Shown here piece by piece: positions 388-5,667 of a stretch of 5,667 nucleotides of DNA. The stretch comes from Acidimicrobiaceae bacterium (GTDB lineage: Bacteria > Actinomycetota > Acidimicrobiia > Acidimicrobiales > RAAP-2), in the NCBI GenBank assembly GCA_003157945.1, contig PMFY01000065.1:1-5667 (forward strand), read 5' to 3'. Positions within the stretch are counted from its first letter, which is position 1. Each line of letters opens with the position of its first letter. The notes beneath the pieces were generated by a model, which worked only from the letters and a program-made list of their open reading frames with translations, did no database searches and was not told where the DNA came from. The translations under genes and the position numbers were made by a program.

Positions 388-1137
388 TCAGCCGTGGCCG
401 CCCGACGACAGACCCACCGACCGGATGATCGGCATCCGCTCGCCGGCCTCGAGGTCCATGCGGCGGGCCTGGTAGAAGCTCATCACCTGGAGCTCCATGC
501 TGAGGTCGACGTAGCGGAGGAAGACGTCGGCGGGCACGTCGAGGACCCGGGGTGCGAAGTTGAGCAGCGACCGGACCCCGGCCTCGATCAGCAGATCGGC
601 CACCCGTTGGGCGACCGGGGCCGGTGTGGTGATCACGCCGATGGCCAGGGGCATCGAGGCGGCGATCGTCGGCAGGTCGTCGGGATGGCGGACCTCGACG
701 CCGTCGATCCGTTCCCCGATGACGGCCGGGTCGGTGTCGACGAGGGCGACGACCTCGAAGTTGCGGGAGGCGAACCCCTGGCTGCGGGCCAGGGCCCGAC
801 CCAGGTTGCCCACGCCGGCGATGGCCACCGTCCAGTCACGGTCGAGGCCCAGCTGGTGGTCGATCTGCTCGACCAGGAAGGCCACGTCGTAGCCGGCGCC
901 GCGGGTCCCGAACGAGCCCAGCAGCGACAGGTCCTTGCGCACCTTGGCCGCATTGACCTGGGCGGCCGCACCCAGCAGCTCCGAGGACACCGTCGACGTG
1001 CCGGACCGCAGCAGCTCCTCGAGGATCCGTTGGTAGACCGGCAACCGGGCCACGGTGGCCTCGGGGATCCGGCGCTCGGCGGTACCGCCCGGGCCCGACG
1101 GCTGGGCTCTGCTCGGACGGGGGGCGTAGGGCGGCAC
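388..1137 (-). CDS. rex: Redox-sensing transcriptional repressor Rex
   Basis: Rex senses the NADH/NAD+ ratio: the protein binds operator DNA when NAD+ dominates and leaves when NADH binds, derepressing respiratory and fermentative genes. The 249-residue protein has a winged-helix N-terminal domain (about 25-88) with IPEATVARLPVYQRIL and LSLLGSFGTRGAGYDV, then a Rossmann fold with GVGNLG at 108-113 and Asp134 ending the second strand (ALVDTDP). The family block NFAPRVLDVP followed by VDLSMELQVMSFYQ (about 193-223) is the C-terminal dimerisation region. The GTG start gives an N-terminal extension before IPEATVARLP like that of Streptomyces Rex, and a TACGAT lies 7 nt upstream with no clear Shine-Dalgarno. 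It follows proC by 52 nt and precedes hemA, as in Streptomyces. The tail after residue 225 is short and not recognised. Confidence 0.95.
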   Translation of the reverse strand: MPPYAPRPSRAQPSGPGGTAERRIPEATVARLPVYQRILEELLRSGTSTVSSELLGAAAQVNAAKVRKDLSLLGSFGTRGAGYDVAFLVEQIDHQLGLDRDWTVAIAGVGNLGRALARSQGFASRNFEVVALVDTDPAVIGERIDGVEVRHPDDLPTIAASMPLAIGVITTPAPVAQRVADLLIEAGVRSLLNFAPRVLDVPADVFLRYVDLSMELQVMSFYQARRMDLEAGERMPIIRSVGLSSGGHG

Positions 1138-1144
1138 GGCCAGG

Positions 1145-1150
1145 ATCGTA
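1145..1150 (-). promoter_or_regulatory. Candidate -10 element for rex (TACGAT), leaderless geometry
   Basis: The minus strand reads TACGAT 7 nt before the rex GTG, so transcription would begin at or within a base of the start codon. There is no clear Shine-Dalgarno, which fits a leaderless mRNA. No -35 hexamer is obvious; the palindrome at 1158-1173 occupies the spacer and -35 zone. Confidence 0.42.
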
Positions 1151-1157
1151 GGGCGAC

Positions 1158-1173
1158 GGACGGGTGCCCGTCC
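1158..1173. promoter_or_regulatory. Perfect 16-bp inverted repeat upstream of rex, possible operator
   Basis: GGACGGGTGCCCGTCC has two perfect 7-bp arms around a 2-bp centre. It lies in the 52-nt proC-rex gap, just upstream of the TACGAT hexamer, where a dimeric repressor would block RNA polymerase. It does not resemble the AT-flanked Rex operator known from Streptomyces (TTGTGAA-N4-TTCACAA). It also starts 16 nt past the proC stop and could fold as a small hairpin (six pairs, four-base loop), so a weak terminator or processing signal is an alternative. Confidence 0.35.
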
Positions 1174-1189
1174 TGTCCGACCCGCCCGC

Positions 1190-1981
1190 CTACCGGCCGA
1201 GCTGGCGCGAGCGCTCGACGGCGGCGGCCACCGCCTCGATGAACGCCGAGCGCACGGCCTTGAACTCGAGGGTGCGGACGGCGGCCGCCGTGGTGCCGCC
1301 GGGCGACGTGACGGCGGCCCGAAGCTCGGCGGGGTCCTGCCCCGTCTCGTCCATCATCCGGGAGGCGCCGAGCAGGGTCCCGACCACCAGGGTGCGGCTG
1401 ACGTCGCGGCTGAGCCCGGCGGTCACCCCGGCCTCGATCATGGCCTCGGCCATGAGGAAGACGTAGGCCGGGCCCGAGCCGGAGATGCCGGTCACGGCGT
1501 CGAGCTGGCGTTCGGGCACCCGCACCACCGTGCCCACCGCCGACAGGATCCCCTCCGCCCAGTCGAGGTCGGCCGCGGTGGCCCCGATCCCGCCCGACAG
1601 GCCCGCCACGCCGGCTCCGACCAGGGACGGGGTGTTGGGCATGGCCCGGACGACCACCGAACCGGGGGGCAGCGCCGCCTCGAGCCGGTCGGACGAGATG
1701 CCGGCCACGATCGACAGCACCCGGCGCGGACCGGTGGCGCCGAGGGTGCGCAGCACGGCCTCGGCCACGTCGGGCTTCACGGCCAGGAGGACGTCGGCGG
1801 CCTCGACCGGCCCGTCGACCACCGTCAGGCCGGGATGGGCCTCGGCCAGCCGGGCCCGTTGGGCCGGGTCGGTCTCGCTGACGGCGAGGTCGCCGAGGGG
1901 GGCCCATCCGGCGGCCACCAGGCCACTGAGCAGGGCGGAGCCCATCTTTCCGCCGCCGACCAGGAGGAGTGTGGGTGCCAT
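1190..1981 (-). CDS. proC: Pyrroline-5-carboxylate reductase
   Basis: ProC catalyses the last step of proline synthesis, reducing pyrroline-5-carboxylate to proline with NAD(P)H in the cytoplasm. The 263-residue product has normal family length. The N-terminal Rossmann domain shows GGGKMG at 9-14, AVKP at 67-70 and MPNTP at 114-118. The C-terminal helical dimerisation domain shows GISGSGPAYV at 165-174. The signature from Pro217 to Glu239 (DPAELRAAVTSPGG, then T, AAAVRTLE) satisfies the PROSITE P5CR pattern when read by eye. The ATG at 1981 places the GGGKMG loop correctly; there is no strong Shine-Dalgarno, but TAGCGT sits 6 nt upstream. It follows the ybjN-like gene by 44 nt and precedes rex. 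Nothing in the sequence is damaged. Confidence 0.96.
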   Translation of the reverse strand: MAPTLLLVGGGKMGSALLSGLVAAGWAPLGDLAVSETDPAQRARLAEAHPGLTVVDGPVEAADVLLAVKPDVAEAVLRTLGATGPRRVLSIVAGISSDRLEAALPPGSVVVRAMPNTPSLVGAGVAGLSGGIGATAADLDWAEGILSAVGTVVRVPERQLDAVTGISGSGPAYVFLMAEAMIEAGVTAGLSRDVSRTLVVGTLLGASRMMDETGQDPAELRAAVTSPGGTTAAAVRTLEFKAVRSAFIEAVAAAVERSRQLGR

Positions 1982-1987
1982 GCCCGA

Positions 1988-1993
1988 ACGCTA
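1988..1993 (-). promoter_or_regulatory. Candidate -10 element for proC (TAGCGT), leaderless geometry
   Basis: The minus strand reads TAGCGT with exactly 6 nt between it and the proC ATG, placing the expected transcription start on the A of ATG. There is no Shine-Dalgarno in this gap. No clear -35 was found at 16 to 18 nt. Confidence 0.42.
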
Positions 1994-2025
1994 CCAGCGG
2001 CCCTGCGGGGCCCCGGTGGGGGGTG

Positions 2026-2532
2026 TCAGCGCTGCGACGGGGGCCGGCGGCGGTAGCGGCCCTCGTAGCCCAGGGCCATGGCCGTCGGGAAGCACTCGTC
2101 GGTGTAGGCCAGCGACGCGCCGATGATCCGGTCGAGCTCGAAGTCGTCGACCCGGGACACCGGCACCCGGCCGACCAGGTAGACGGCGTCCTCGTCACCC
2201 AGGGCGAAGGCCATCCCGAGGAGGTCGGCGTTGCGGGTCAGGAGGTAGCGCCACGTCGCCTCGATGTTGGTCTCCGGAGCCGGCATGAACTGGCACTCGT
2301 GGCGGAGGGTGCGCTGGCGGAGCGTCAGCCAGACGGTGACGAACTCCTTCTCGTCGCCCTTCAGCCGCAGGTACCAGCGCGGTGCCCCGGTGATCGGGTC
2401 GCCCCCCGCCTGGCGGTCCACCGCCACCAGGGCCCCCCCGGTGGCCAGCTCGCGGGCGCTCCAGGAGTCGATGCGGGCGCAGACCGCATCGCGCTCGGCG
2501 GGTCCGAGGATGCCCGCCCAGTCGTCGGTCAC
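2026..2532 (-). CDS. YbjN-family protein of unknown function
   Basis: A 168-residue soluble protein without signal peptide or membrane segment. It resembles the YbjN (PF10722-type) family of alpha/beta proteins, related in fold to type III secretion chaperones, whose biochemical role is unsettled. Visible family-like blocks are WYLRLKGDEKEFVTVWLTLR at about 53-72, the strand FMPAPE at 82-87 and the acidic-hydrophobic C-terminal helix near DELDRIIG-like residues 131-138. I chose the GTG at 2532 because it overlaps the mshA stop as GTGA, typical of coupled genes; a second GTG two codons upstream is also possible. A ybjN-like gene directly after mshA is also found in mycobacteria (Rv0486-Rv0487, from memory), which supports the call and hints at a role tied to mycothiol or stress. 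The C-terminus is a basic RRRPPSQR tail. Confidence 0.8.
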   Translation of the reverse strand: MTDDWAGILGPAERDAVCARIDSWSARELATGGALVAVDRQAGGDPITGAPRWYLRLKGDEKEFVTVWLTLRQRTLRHECQFMPAPETNIEATWRYLLTRNADLLGMAFALGDEDAVYLVGRVPVSRVDDFELDRIIGASLAYTDECFPTAMALGYEGRYRRRPPSQR

Positions 2533-3791
2533 GTGCACTCGACGAGGCGCCCGGCCGTGAGGTCCGCGTAGATGTCCACCAGCAGGTGGGCGGCGCGGGT
2601 CCACGTGTAGCGCCGGGCCCGCAGCACCGAGCCGGTGCTCAGCCGTTCGGCCAGCAGCGGCTCGGCCAGGATCTGGCGCACCCAGGCGGCGTAGGCCTCG
2701 GGGTCGGCGTCCTCCACCAGGTAGCCGGTCCGCCCGTGGTCGACGAGGCTGCGCAGCCCGCCCACGTCGGACGCCACCACCGGGGTGCCGCACGCCGCGG
2801 CCTCCAGGGCCACCAGTCCGAACGACTCCGACCGGCTCGGCACCAGGCACACGTCGGCGGCCCGGTAGTAGGTCGACAGCAGCTCGTGCGGGCGGGGCGG
2901 GACGAACAGGACCTTGTCGGCCAGGCCGAGCGCGTCGACCAGCCCGGTGATGCGCTCCACCTCCTCGTCGCCGTGGGGCCCGCTCGGGCCGCCCACGATG
3001 ACCAGACGGGCGTCGGGCTCGTCCCGCACCACCGAGGCCAGGGTGGCCACGGCCACGGCCACGCCCTTCAGCGGCTGGATCCGCCCCACGAACAGCAGCA
3101 GCGGACCGTCGGCCGGGAGCTCGAGGGCCCGCCGGGCCTGGGCCCGGTCACCCGGTCCGAAGAAGGCGTGGTCGACTCCGGGGGCGACGATCCGGATGCG
3201 CGACGGGTCCGCACCGTAGAGGTCGGAGATCTGGGCCGCCTCGACCGAGCAGGACGCCAGCACCGTGTCCGAGCAGCGGATGATGGCGGCCTCGGCCTCG
3301 GCCCGCAGGTGGGAGGAGTGGGCTTCCACCTCCTCGGGGCTGGCCTCGGCCTTGACGCGGTCCAGCGTGTGGAACGTCGAGACCAGCGGCAGGTTGAGCT
3401 GGTGCTTGATGGTGTGGCCGGCGATCCCGCTGAGCCAGTAGTTGGCGTGCACCGCGTCGAAGGGCAGGTCGTCGTCGGAGGCGAGCGTCCCGGCCGTGGT
3501 CATGGACTTGAGCACCCCGTCGGTGAACTCGTCGACCACGCCCAGGAGGGCTTCCTTGGCGAGGGGTGCCGGCGGCCCGGCGGCCACGTGGTGCACGCGG
3601 AATCCGGGCTCGATGTCGAGGGTCGGGGCCAGGTCGTCCGACCAGGCCCGGGTGTACACGTCGCAGATGACGCCGGCCCGGGCCAGTGCGGAGGAGAGCT
3701 CGCGCACGTAGACGTTCATGCCGCCGCCGTCCCCGGTGCCCGGTTGGGCGAGGGGCGAGGTGTGGAGGGAAAGGACGGCGAGTCGCCTCAT
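2529..3791 (-). CDS. mshA: D-inositol-3-phosphate glycosyltransferase MshA
   Basis: MshA starts mycothiol synthesis by transferring N-acetylglucosamine from UDP-GlcNAc to 1L-myo-inositol-1-phosphate. Mycothiol is the main low-molecular-weight thiol of actinobacteria. The 420-residue protein is a GT4-family GT-B enzyme. The N-terminal domain begins with LSLHTSPLAQPGTGDGGGMN (8-26), the glycine-rich acceptor/donor loop typical of MshA, and has HANYWLSG at 115-122. The C-terminal domain has GRIQPLKG (236-243), with Arg237 and Lys242 expected to contact UDP-GlcNAc phosphates, and the EX7E element ESFGLVALE (322-330). The ATG at 3791 is 29 nt after the xre stop; AGGA is about 11 nt upstream, rather far, and overlaps the TAGGAT hexamer. 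The 3' end overlaps the ybjN-like gene by 4 nt. All expected motifs are intact. Confidence 0.95.
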   Translation of the reverse strand: MRRLAVLSLHTSPLAQPGTGDGGGMNVYVRELSSALARAGVICDVYTRAWSDDLAPTLDIEPGFRVHHVAAGPPAPLAKEALLGVVDEFTDGVLKSMTTAGTLASDDDLPFDAVHANYWLSGIAGHTIKHQLNLPLVSTFHTLDRVKAEASPEEVEAHSSHLRAEAEAAIIRCSDTVLASCSVEAAQISDLYGADPSRIRIVAPGVDHAFFGPGDRAQARRALELPADGPLLLFVGRIQPLKGVAVAVATLASVVRDEPDARLVIVGGPSGPHGDEEVERITGLVDALGLADKVLFVPPRPHELLSTYYRAADVCLVPSRSESFGLVALEAAACGTPVVASDVGGLRSLVDHGRTGYLVEDADPEAYAAWVRQILAEPLLAERLSTGSVLRARRYTWTRAAHLLVDIYADLTAGRLVECT

Positions 3792-3820: not shown

Positions 3821-4297
3821 TCAGCCGGCAGCCGCGGTGGTGTCGGCGGGCTCGGGGCCGTCGGGGGCCACGTCGGCCGGGGCGGCCTCCGTCCGGGGAG
3901 CGCCGTCGGACTGGTCCTCGTTCTCGTGCCGGAACGACAGGTAGATCCGCATCAGGGCCTGCCGCTGCTCCTCGGTGAGGTGCTGGTCGGCGAAGATGTG
4001 CCGGGACAGGTCCGTGTCGCCGTCGGGGCGCTCGAGGATGCCGGCCTGGACGTAGAGGGTCTCGGCCGAGATCCGCAGTGCCTTGGCGATCTGCTGGAGG
4101 ATCTCGGCGGACGGTCGGCGCAGGCCCCGCTCGATCTGGCTCAGGTAGGGGTTGGAGATGCCGGCGAGCTCCGACAGGCGCCGCAGCGACAGTCGGGCCG
4201 AGCTCCGCTGCTCCCGGATGAACGACCCCAGCTCGTTGAAGCGTTCCGGCAGCTCCTTGACGAACCGGTCGCCGTCGTGGCCGACCGGGTCGGTCAT
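3821..4297 (-). CDS. XRE-family helix-turn-helix transcriptional regulator
   Basis: A 158-residue cytoplasmic DNA-binding protein. A Cro/C1-type HTH spans about 21-82: FIREQRSSARLSLRRLSELA leads into the recognition-helix region GISNPYLSQIERGLRRPS (46-63), then LQQIAKALRISAETLYVQAG. A short conserved-looking helical segment (LTEEQRQALMRIYLSF, 107-122) follows and may serve dimerisation. The last 30 residues are an Ala/Pro/Asp/Gly-rich, probably disordered tail. The SNPYLSQIERG...SADILQQIAKALRISAE-type signature recalls a widespread actinobacterial regulator of unknown targets, including M. tuberculosis Rv0474 from memory. The ATG overlaps the rsiG stop as ATGA, and no Shine-Dalgarno is visible, so translation probably depends on rsiG. 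Its operator and ligand, if any, are not apparent. Confidence 0.9.
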   Translation of the reverse strand: MTDPVGHDGDRFVKELPERFNELGSFIREQRSSARLSLRRLSELAGISNPYLSQIERGLRRPSAEILQQIAKALRISAETLYVQAGILERPDGDTDLSRHIFADQHLTEEQRQALMRIYLSFRHENEDQSDGAPRTEAAPADVAPDGPEPADTTAAAG

Positions 4298-4836
4298 GTC
4301 AGGAGACCGTCCAGCGAGGCGGTCCCGCTCTTGTGCCGCTCGACCAGCTCGGCCTGCAGGGTGTCGATCCGCTCGTGGAGGCCCCGACGTTCGGCGGACA
4401 CACGGTTCTCGAGGTCACGCAGCCGGCCGGCCAGCTCCGCCAGGGCGGCGTCGTCGAATCCGGCGAGGTTGGCGACGTCGTCGGCGCCCAGGATGGTGTC
4501 GAGCTCCACCGTGAGCTCCGCCATCTCGTCGGTGTCCGGCGAATAGAGGACGGGGTTGCGGCTCGGTCCGGTCGACCGACCGGGACCGGCCAGGATGCCG
4601 GCCAGGTTCTCCACCACGCTCGACAGGTCGGGGGCCGCCGAGCCCTCGGGCCGCTCCATGTAGGCGTGCACGATGTCCAGCCGGCCCTGGATGAGGCGGC
4701 GCAGGTAGGACAGGGATGCCTCGGCTTCCTGGCACTCGGCGCGCATCCGTCGGATGTCGTCGAGCGACAGCCCGGGGACGTCGGCGAGGTAGCCCGGTTC
4801 GAGGAGTCGGGCGAGGTCTTCCTGGGAGCTCGGCAT
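4294..4836 (-). CDS. rsiG: RsiG-type anti-sigma factor homologue with two c-di-GMP-binding motifs
   Basis: A 180-residue soluble, charged, largely helical protein. In Streptomyces, RsiG sequesters the sporulation sigma factor WhiG when loaded with cyclic-di-GMP; the two-helix antiparallel coiled coil binds the nucleotide through E-x3-S-x2-R-x3-Q-x3-D motifs. The first motif is exact here: EASLSYLRRLIQGRLD, with Glu39, Ser43, Arg46, Gln50 and Asp54. The second helix has ENRVSAERRGLHERID: Glu143, Ser147, Arg150, His154 and Asp158, with His (CAC) in place of Gln. The helices are joined by about 90 residues. No WhiG gene is in the window, so the partner is unknown. The ATG shares one base with the sodX stop (TGATG) and the stop overlaps the xre start (ATGA). 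The identification rests on motif spacing rather than overall similarity; the function is inferred. Confidence 0.8.
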   Translation of the reverse strand: MPSSQEDLARLLEPGYLADVPGLSLDDIRRMRAECQEAEASLSYLRRLIQGRLDIVHAYMERPEGSAAPDLSSVVENLAGILAGPGRSTGPSRNPVLYSPDTDEMAELTVELDTILGADDVANLAGFDDAALAELAGRLRDLENRVSAERRGLHERIDTLQAELVERHKSGTASLDGLLT

Positions 4837-5312
4837 CAGGTCCGATGGTACTCCGTGGGCCGGCCCAGAGGGCCAGAGCGGCCGGGCGGCCCGTATCGGT
4901 AGACGGCCCGGCCCGCCACCGAGGCCAGCGGAACGGGCCCGAACGTCCGGCTGTCGGTGCTCCGGTCCGGCGCATCCCCCCGCACCTCGACCGTGCCCCG
5001 GGACCGGTCCACCCCGGCGACCCGCTTCACCAGCAGGCGCCCGGGAGACCGGGGGTCGGGTACGGCGACGACGTCACCGGGTGCCGGGGCCCCGGGCCAC
5101 GGCGGCGCGACCACGAGCAGGCGGTCGCCCTCGAGGAGGGCGGGGGCCATCGAGTCACCCGTCACCTCCACCCGGCGGACGCAGCGGGCCAGCACCAGCG
5201 CGGCCAGCGTCGCCACCACGGCCGCGACCCCTCCCCTCCGGCCCCACGACCTCGTCCGGCACCCCGGATGGGTGGCGCCCGAGGTGGGTAAGGTGGCGCC
5301 GTCGGGGTCCAT
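4836..5312 (-). CDS. sodX: Nickel superoxide dismutase maturation protease SodX (S26 signal-peptidase-like)
   Basis: SodX removes the N-terminal propeptide of Ni-SOD so that the mature His1 can bind nickel. The 158-residue protein has one membrane segment (GGVAAVVATLAALVLA, 27-42), preceded by an Arg-rich stretch. A signal-peptidase fold follows: box B GDSMAPALLEGD (52-63) with catalytic Ser54, box D LVKRVAG (94-100) with catalytic Lys96, and the late block GDAPDRSTDSRTFGPV (112-127). The ATG at 5312 is preferred: the longer frame to 5480 would run through the whole intergenic region into sodN, and its upstream residues are unlike a protein. The upstream Shine-Dalgarno is poor (GGGGG directly before ATG); an in-frame GTG five codons upstream is possible. 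It is divergent from sodN, whereas Streptomyces has the pair in tandem. An ordinary type I signal peptidase is less likely given the short length and the sodN neighbour. Confidence 0.92.
   Translation of the reverse strand: MDPDGATLPTSGATHPGCRTRSWGRRGGVAAVVATLAALVLARCVRRVEVTGDSMAPALLEGDRLLVVAPPWPGAPAPGDVVAVPDPRSPGRLLVKRVAGVDRSRGTVEVRGDAPDRSTDSRTFGPVPLASVAGRAVYRYGPPGRSGPLGRPTEYHRT
4845..4850 (-). promoter_or_regulatory. Candidate internal -10 element for rsiG (TACCAT)
   Basis: The minus strand reads TACCAT with 8 nt to the rsiG ATG, inside the last codons of sodX. It would give a leader of only 1 to 2 nt and let rsiG-xre be expressed apart from sodX. The bases are also constrained by sodX coding, so this may be coincidence. 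Confidence 0.3.
5289..5294 (+). promoter_or_regulatory. Candidate -10 element toward sodN (TAAGGT)
   Basis: TAAGGT matches TANNNT and lies inside the start of sodX. The 140 nt between the sodX and sodN starts contain no TA dinucleotide at all, so no canonical -10 can exist there on either strand, and this is the nearest one pointing at sodN. A start near 5301 would give a leader of about 150 nt overlapping the sodX 5' end. No -35 was seen. Confidence 0.22.
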
Positions 5313-5403
5313 GCCCCCACTCTGCACCAGACGGGCCCGGCGGGAGCCGTGCCCGGGCCGGGCGGGCCCACGGGTCGGCCCGGCACCAGGAATCCACCCC
5401 CAT

Positions 5404-5440
5404 CCCGGGAACCCAACCCGGGAACCCAACCCAGGAACAA
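5404..5440 (+). repeat. 13-bp tandem repeat in the sodN leader
   Basis: Two perfect copies of CCCGGGAACCCAA lie head to tail at 5404-5416 and 5417-5429, followed by a degraded 11-nt copy CCCAGGAACAA at 5430-5440. The array ends 2 nt before the sodN ribosome-binding site. Each full copy contains the palindrome CCCGGG. It may be a regulator-binding array, a leader element or simply slippage. Confidence 0.75.
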
Positions 5441-5441
5441 C

Positions 5442-5447
5442 AAGGAG
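5442..5447 (+). promoter_or_regulatory. Strong ribosome-binding site of sodN
   Basis: AAGGAG lies 5 nt before the sodN ATG in an unusually A-rich context for this genome. It fixes the start codon and is the only strong Shine-Dalgarno in the window, in keeping with abundant production of Ni-SOD. Confidence 0.85.
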
Positions 5448-5452
5448 CTCCC

Positions 5453-5667
5453 ATGCGCATCGCAGCCCACCTGCTCGCACTCGTCGACCGGGTGTCGCCC
5501 CCGTCGGTCGTCCACGCCCACTGCGACCTGCCGTGCGGGGTCTACGACCCGGCCCAGGCCCGCATCGAGGCCGAGTCGGTGAAGGCCACCATCGAGAAGT
5601 CCAACGCCTCCGACGACGAGTCGTTCAAGATCCGGGCCGCCATCATCAAGGAGGAGCGGGCCGACCT
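5453..5667 (+). CDS. sodN: Nickel superoxide dismutase precursor, N-terminal part (cut by window edge)
   Basis: Ni-SOD disproportionates superoxide to oxygen and hydrogen peroxide as a cytoplasmic homohexamer of four-helix bundles. The first 71 codons are present; the gene leaves the right edge. Residues 23-33 are HCDLPCGVYDP, the nickel hook: after cleavage His23 becomes His1, and Cys24 and Cys28 become the Cys2 and Cys6 ligands. The next residues (AQARIEAESVKA) match Streptomyces Ni-SOD closely from memory, followed by the helix IRAAIIKEERAD. The propeptide MRIAAHLLALVDRVSPPSVVHA is 22 residues, longer than the 14 I recall for Streptomyces, and is not a classical Sec signal. The ATG is fixed by AAGGAG 5 nt upstream. 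The cognate protease gene sodX lies divergently 140 nt away. Confidence 0.97.
   Translation, partial: MRIAAHLLALVDRVSPPSVVHAHCDLPCGVYDPAQARIEAESVKATIEKSNASDDESFKIRAAIIKEERAD

Follow-up and report, generated by a model that had tools for sequence, protein, structure and literature searches.

The window, by which we mean the whole stretch of 5,667 nucleotides analyzed here (contig PMFY01000065.1 of an Acidimicrobiaceae bacterium), carries a gene for a protein that, as judged from its sequence, is the RsiG of Acidimicrobiia. The gene and its features are listed in Table 1. The original prediction had left the strand of this open reading frame unstated; rsiG lies on the minus strand, and the plus-strand reading of positions 4294-4836 is not the protein. 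The genes around it are tightly packed, as the stop codon of the sodX-like gene shares one base with the rsiG ATG, and the xre ATG overlaps the rsiG stop (ATGA), a four-base overlap. The sodX-like product scores 62.3, slightly below the NCBIfam cut-off of 63.25. Its start codon is uncertain, with the longest sodX reading frame running over the sodN start, and within positions 4836-5667 this minus-strand protease gene is divergent from a nickel SOD gene on the plus strand that is truncated at the window end. On the other side, xre is followed on the same strand (388-3791, minus) by mshA, a YbjN-domain gene, proC and rex, an order retained from xre onwards in many related loci. The xre gene is a conserved neighbor, which may or may not have a role in the RsiG switch.

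Table 1. Features of the rsiG locus in the window.
Feature	Position	Strand	Basis
rsiG, 180-aa twin-motif RsiG-family anti-sigma factor (assigned by sequence)	4294..4836	-	ORF, motifs, PF22802, fold match
Motif 1, residues 39-54, E-x3-S-x2-R-x3-Q-x3-D, predicted helix 25-60	4675..4722	-	
Motif 2, residues 143-158, E-x3-S-x2-R-x3-H-x3-D, predicted helix 129-169	4363..4410	-	
His154 codon CAC	4375..4377	-	read from window sequence
xre, 158-aa HTH_3 regulator	3821..4297	-	conserved neighbor
sodX-like nickel-SOD maturation protease / S26 peptidase	4836..5480	-	neighbor only

The protein had been proposed to be a two-motif, one-chain RsiG outside Streptomyces, a description now supported by its motifs, its Pfam match and its sequence and fold matches. 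Residues E39, S43, R46, Q50 and D54 make up an exact first motif, and the motif recurs at E143, S147, R150, H154 and D158 with His in place of Gln, both as originally read. A profile search matched the Pfam RsiG family PF22802 in two stretches with 98.4 bits, against a cut-off of 27 (1.8e-28), and NCBIfam gave no match to the protein. The best sequence match in the PDB is Streptomyces venezuelae RsiG (6pfj, 4.1e-17), over residues 19-179 and with both motifs aligned, so that, together with the Pfam match, the twin motif is not a matter of chance. S. venezuelae RsiG (6pfj, 6pfv), the anti-sigma factor of WhiG, is also the best fold match. It is likewise a single chain with two motifs and two long helices, is of similar length, and shares 32-34% identity with the window protein in the fold alignments, which agree with the antiparallel two-helix coiled coil originally predicted. 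The twin-motif form, with the motif in both helices, is thus present, although motif 2 has Gln in S. venezuelae RsiG and His in the window protein; by the alignment, His154 takes the guanine-stacking position of motif 2. Moreover, the motif 1 region matches RsiG of Rubrobacter radiotolerans (7lq2, 7lq3, 7lq4) at about 1e-5, but that protein has a single motif and works as a homodimer, in contrast to the two motifs in one chain found here. The window RsiG would be expected to bind both c-di-GMP and WhiG.

The motif positions are well kept in homologues. The comparison took in 121 sequences, namely the query and 120 listed matches out of 408; one of these 120, P0012, is the window's own protein in a shorter reading. 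Of the ten positions of the two motifs, nine are constant or almost so: positions 39, 43, 46 and 54 have a gap in one sequence and no change in the other 120; position 50 is Q in 119, H in one and a gap in one; positions 143, 147 and 158 are unchanged in all 121, and position 150 in 120. Position 154 is H in 116 and F in five. A separate scan of loci relied on a pair of peptide patterns; since one demands Gln in motif 1, the scan is biased at position 50. In that scan, the E-S-R-x-D pattern occurred at least twice in 72 of 76 loci, once in L039 and L049, and not at all in L028 and L061 (L070 and L078 were excluded from this count and from the neighbor count given below).

We then looked at the presumed partner in related genomes. 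Of 50 rsiG-bearing genomes searched, 44 contain a FliA_WhiG match that passes the cut-off of the family. A further 197 genomes were drawn from the class, with a 90% completeness filter requested, although completeness values do not appear in the resulting tables. Of these, 128 combine rsiG with a strong FliA_WhiG match (≤1e-65), two have rsiG alone, eight the sigma factor alone and 59 neither; hence, 128 of 130 rsiG genomes carry the strong match. Several rsiG genomes have a strong and a weaker FliA_WhiG match together, and G143, G146, G216, G238 and others have a weaker one (about 1e-46 to 1e-60) and no rsiG; these weaker matches may represent a distinct flagellar sigma factor that does not depend on RsiG. 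The WhiG of the nearest relative (L099), the single one to which NCBIfam model NF004935 was applied, scores 356.7 bits against a cut-off of 343. It aligns with S. venezuelae WhiG at 3e-91, with K57, G61 and R62 aligned and kept, and these contact residues of S. venezuelae WhiG are also present in the WhiG relative of related genomes: over 48 WhiG loci from 46 genomes (G018 and G021 counted twice), the c-di-GMP contacts are K in 48, G in 43 (S in three, A and T in one each) and R in 48. In the nearest relative, whiG adjoins rpsB, tsf, pyrH and frr (reading frames named by eye), which we take to be the same neighbor order as around Streptomyces whiG. Overall, the window's own genome presumably carries WhiG, together with the promoters described next.

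Promoters were searched with the flagellar-type consensus TAAA and GCCGATAA (PMC8325347, in the parts covered). With spacers of 14-16 and no mismatches, the consensus gave three sites in 20 genomes and none with the reversed control, and all three have a spacer of 16 and read TAAAG. The form TAAAG-N15-GCCGATAA, with at most one mismatch, gave 36 sites against six for the reversed pattern in the 16 near genomes (G001-G013 and G015-G017; G014 has no strong FliA_WhiG match and was excluded), a count that is weak on its own, as the form was chosen after the three exact sites had been seen. The tests on GGDEF genes, permuted motifs and pilins reported below are separate from it. In 11 class genomes without FliA_WhiG at 1e-40, the pattern occurred four times against six in the control, as expected when the sigma factor is absent. 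A further 36 genomes of the class that carry rsiG gave only 33 sites against 20, so that the regulon is supported for the near relatives of the window and not for the class as a whole. The published consensus points to WhiG, rather than another sigma factor, as the likely reader of these sites.

Several candidates were set aside. TAAA-N15-GCCGATAA (15-base spacer, at most one mismatch) gave four sites against 16 reversed in 12 genomes. The consensus with spacers of 14-16 and up to two mismatches gave 12 against nine (each box reversed) in 15 type IV pilus regions, and three against four in 28 other loci. A recurrent TCAA...GCCGATGA before a shared start codon in four pilus regions proved, by eye, to be in-frame, conserved coding sequence. 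In L139, the exact site is flanked by convergent genes and, by eye, includes an inverted repeat, and thus looks like a terminator region. The exact site in L137, with a similar site and a similar downstream reading, was handled in the same way without an ORF list. Both are nevertheless within the 32 sites of the next test, scored as sites without a GGDEF domain.

In 12 genomes with 139 GGDEF domains, 15 of the 32 sites are followed within 3 kb by a GGDEF domain on their own strand, where 0.17 would be expected; orthologous sites are not independent in this comparison. When one GGDEF gene was picked per genome, by a match of the same shape as at the exact site, a site with 0-3 mismatches ended seven bases before the GTG of that gene in 12 of 12 near genomes, while 40 permuted motifs reached at most one of 12. 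Between genomes, the promoter core is 85% identical and the spacer 32%. The N-termini of these genes look orthologous in most cases, those of L245, L246 and L249 being more diverged. The distance of seven bases to the GTG fits a leaderless transcript. Both GGEEF and an RxxD inhibition site are present in the encoded protein of 11 of the 12 genomes, the exception being L245, which lacks GGEEF. Likewise, in the five genomes fully read, a site stands 7-9 bases ahead of the start of a second gene, of about 1000 aa; the product of this gene has an EAL motif in all five, and PAS, GGDEF and EAL domains in both of those tested (L278, L279). The same promoter type was also seen 7-8 bases before an ATG in L266 (G004:C288), L271 (G007:C326) and L252 (G007:C86), with small ORFs in the first two and a GGDEF domain about 1.5 kb further on in L252; these three are possible extra leaderless WhiG targets.

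Regarding pili, pilin motifs were found in six of 15 type IV pilus regions, at eight places. Five of the eight have an upstream site, scoring 13.0-21.2 and so below the training minimum of 23.0, and in three genomes the site stands 132-133 bases before the motif. Sites scoring at least 13 numbered eight in 238 kb of pilus regions against three in 349 kb of other loci. One PilM gene is also preceded by a site.

Altogether, we propose that, in the lineage of the window, RsiG and WhiG form a c-di-GMP switch whose output comprises GGDEF/EAL genes and type IV pilin. We give this reading a probability of about 0.8, on the grounds of family membership, motifs, fold match, WhiG co-occurrence and promoter conservation in near relatives. 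A single RsiG chain would fold into an antiparallel two-helix coiled coil and, through its two motifs, bind a dimer of c-di-GMP, with Gln50 and His154 stacking onto guanine bases. Loaded with c-di-GMP, RsiG would clamp WhiG and keep it away from RNA polymerase; a drop in c-di-GMP would free WhiG to act at TAAAG-N15-GCCGATAA promoters of the GGDEF protein with intact GGEEF, the PAS-GGDEF-EAL protein and the type IV pilin gene. The switch would in this way feed back on c-di-GMP turnover, in a direction that we infer, and set pilus expression rather than sporulation. In Streptomyces, the GGDEF-EAL protein RmdB is reported to bind WhiG and displace RsiG (PMC13232838, in the parts covered), and by analogy the PAS-GGDEF-EAL protein might act back on WhiG as well.

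One objection to this switch is that His154 marks a defective second motif, with c-di-GMP bound on one side or not at all, as motif 2 of S. venezuelae RsiG has Gln. The class draw gave 130 RsiG matches, of which the 90 with the highest scores bear directly on this; they come from a profile search rather than from the locus scan, and their tally leans to closer relatives, as the 40 lowest-scoring matches are outside it. Outside the stacking positions, position 39 is E in 64, D in 25 and A in one; position 54 is D in 85 and E in five; position 143 is E in 89 and D in one; and position 158 is D in 83, E in four, N in two and G in one. All eight E/S/R/D positions are kept in only 57 of the 90, a looseness that could favor a defect, but no sequence departs from Ser and Arg in either motif (90/90). 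The stacking position is Q in 54 and H in 36 in motif 1, and H in 52, F in 20, Q in nine and Y in nine in motif 2, with none of the 90 having Gln at both; every residue seen there is planar, which fits a stacking role. Hence, His154 is ordinary for the class, H being the commonest residue at its position, and the asymmetry that had been predicted is real without being anything special. The covered parts of PMC8325347 name helix 1 as the sole exception to Gln, a statement that does not suit Acidimicrobiia, where helix 2 departs from Gln more often. The same parts describe His at the helix 1 position as frequent and suited to the same stacking, and report that a single-motif C. woesei RsiG with the equivalent His binds a c-di-GMP probe with a Kd of 25 uM. 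On the class tally, we rejected a defective motif 2, which is very improbable.

The neighboring genes, in turn, had led to the idea that RsiG may have a different client sigma factor or output. In a wider form, the client could be another sigma factor or another protein, with an output tied to nickel SOD, the XRE regulator or mycothiol. The sodX-rsiG-xre-mshA order is indeed conserved. Among 52 loci (L001-L051 and L053, named as Acidimicrobiales, -aceae or -iia, Microthrix, Aciditerrimonas or unresolved actinobacteria), xre lies at most 150 bases downstream of rsiG in 36 and at most 1700 in 43, mshA at most 2100 bases away in 45, and rsiG is directly preceded by a sodX relative in 26; moreover, the four-base rsiG/xre overlap suggests translational coupling. 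In the remaining 24 loci, the same four counts are 0, 1, 0 and 0, the sole exception being the Streptomycetaceae locus L055, where xre (+978) and mshA (+5405) share the strand of rsiG. The block is thus the common place of rsiG in its lineage, and as such it says nothing about another client. Against one stand the close co-occurrence of rsiG and WhiG across the class, the c-di-GMP contacts retained by WhiG, and the fact that xre and mshA also occur together outside the lineage, at most 8 kb apart on the same strand in nine of 12 genomes (Streptomycetaceae, Kineococcus/Kineosporiaceae, Frankiales). In addition, the window holds no convincing WhiG-type promoter, with one three-mismatch site (0.20 expected) and none in the score scan. 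We therefore consider another client unlikely. The expectation of a different output fared better, drawing support from the promoter sites, which point away from sporulation, and none from the neighboring genes. A flagellar or sporulation-like output of the RsiG-WhiG switch, in place of c-di-GMP enzymes and type IV pili, could be argued from the place of WhiG in the flagellar sigma clade, from a 2013 review in which most of the simple actinobacteria with WhiG are described as motile (PMC4255298, in the parts covered), and from a 2023 survey that puts flagellar genes in 41-91% of species of basal classes including Acidimicrobiia (PMC10746217, likewise in part). Flagellin was also found in five of 16 more distant genomes, which have PilT in 11. 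In the 16 near genomes, however, flagellin is absent from all at E ≤ 1e-8 and PilT is present in 15, and the promoter-like sites sit ahead of GGDEF and pilin genes, so that an output of this kind appears improbable. The RsiG-WhiG output in the lineage of the window is probably c-di-GMP enzymes and pili, and not sporulation as in S. venezuelae.

Part of this picture is already published. The covered parts of PMC8325347 report twin-motif RsiG in three of four Acidimicrobiales species and in several other families, proteins with the same architecture as the window RsiG and most likely of the same lineage, as well as the substitution of His for Gln. They also link WhiG to pili and c-di-GMP enzymes in Rubrobacter, where type IV pilus genes account for three of 12 predicted WhiG target promoters and DGC/PDE genes for five, the same target classes as those of the sites found here. 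Those parts contain no Acidimicrobiales target promoters, and WhiG targets in Acidimicrobiia did not appear in the titles or abstract starts among the matches listed for open-access PMC. Not found in print were the class-wide variation of motif 2 and the prediction that a twin-motif switch has pili and c-di-GMP enzymes as its output.

RsiG-WhiG is a model for the re-use of a c-di-GMP switch, with a dimeric RsiG linked to pili in Rubrobacter and a monomeric RsiG linked to sporulation in Streptomyces. We somewhat favor the fuller view that in Acidimicrobiia a monomeric RsiG-WhiG pair governs leaderless GGDEF and PAS-GGDEF-EAL transcripts and a pilin gene with an ordinary promoter, with c-di-GMP feedback, and that duplication preceded recruitment to sporulation. 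The predicted starts, at which 7-9 bases separate the -10 box from the start codon, make the pilus and c-di-GMP-enzyme output directly testable. If true, a monomeric RsiG running pili and c-di-GMP enzymes would mean that the changes in architecture and in output were separate steps, and that the intragenic duplication behind the twin-motif form came before, and apart from, the recruitment of the switch to sporulation in Streptomyces.
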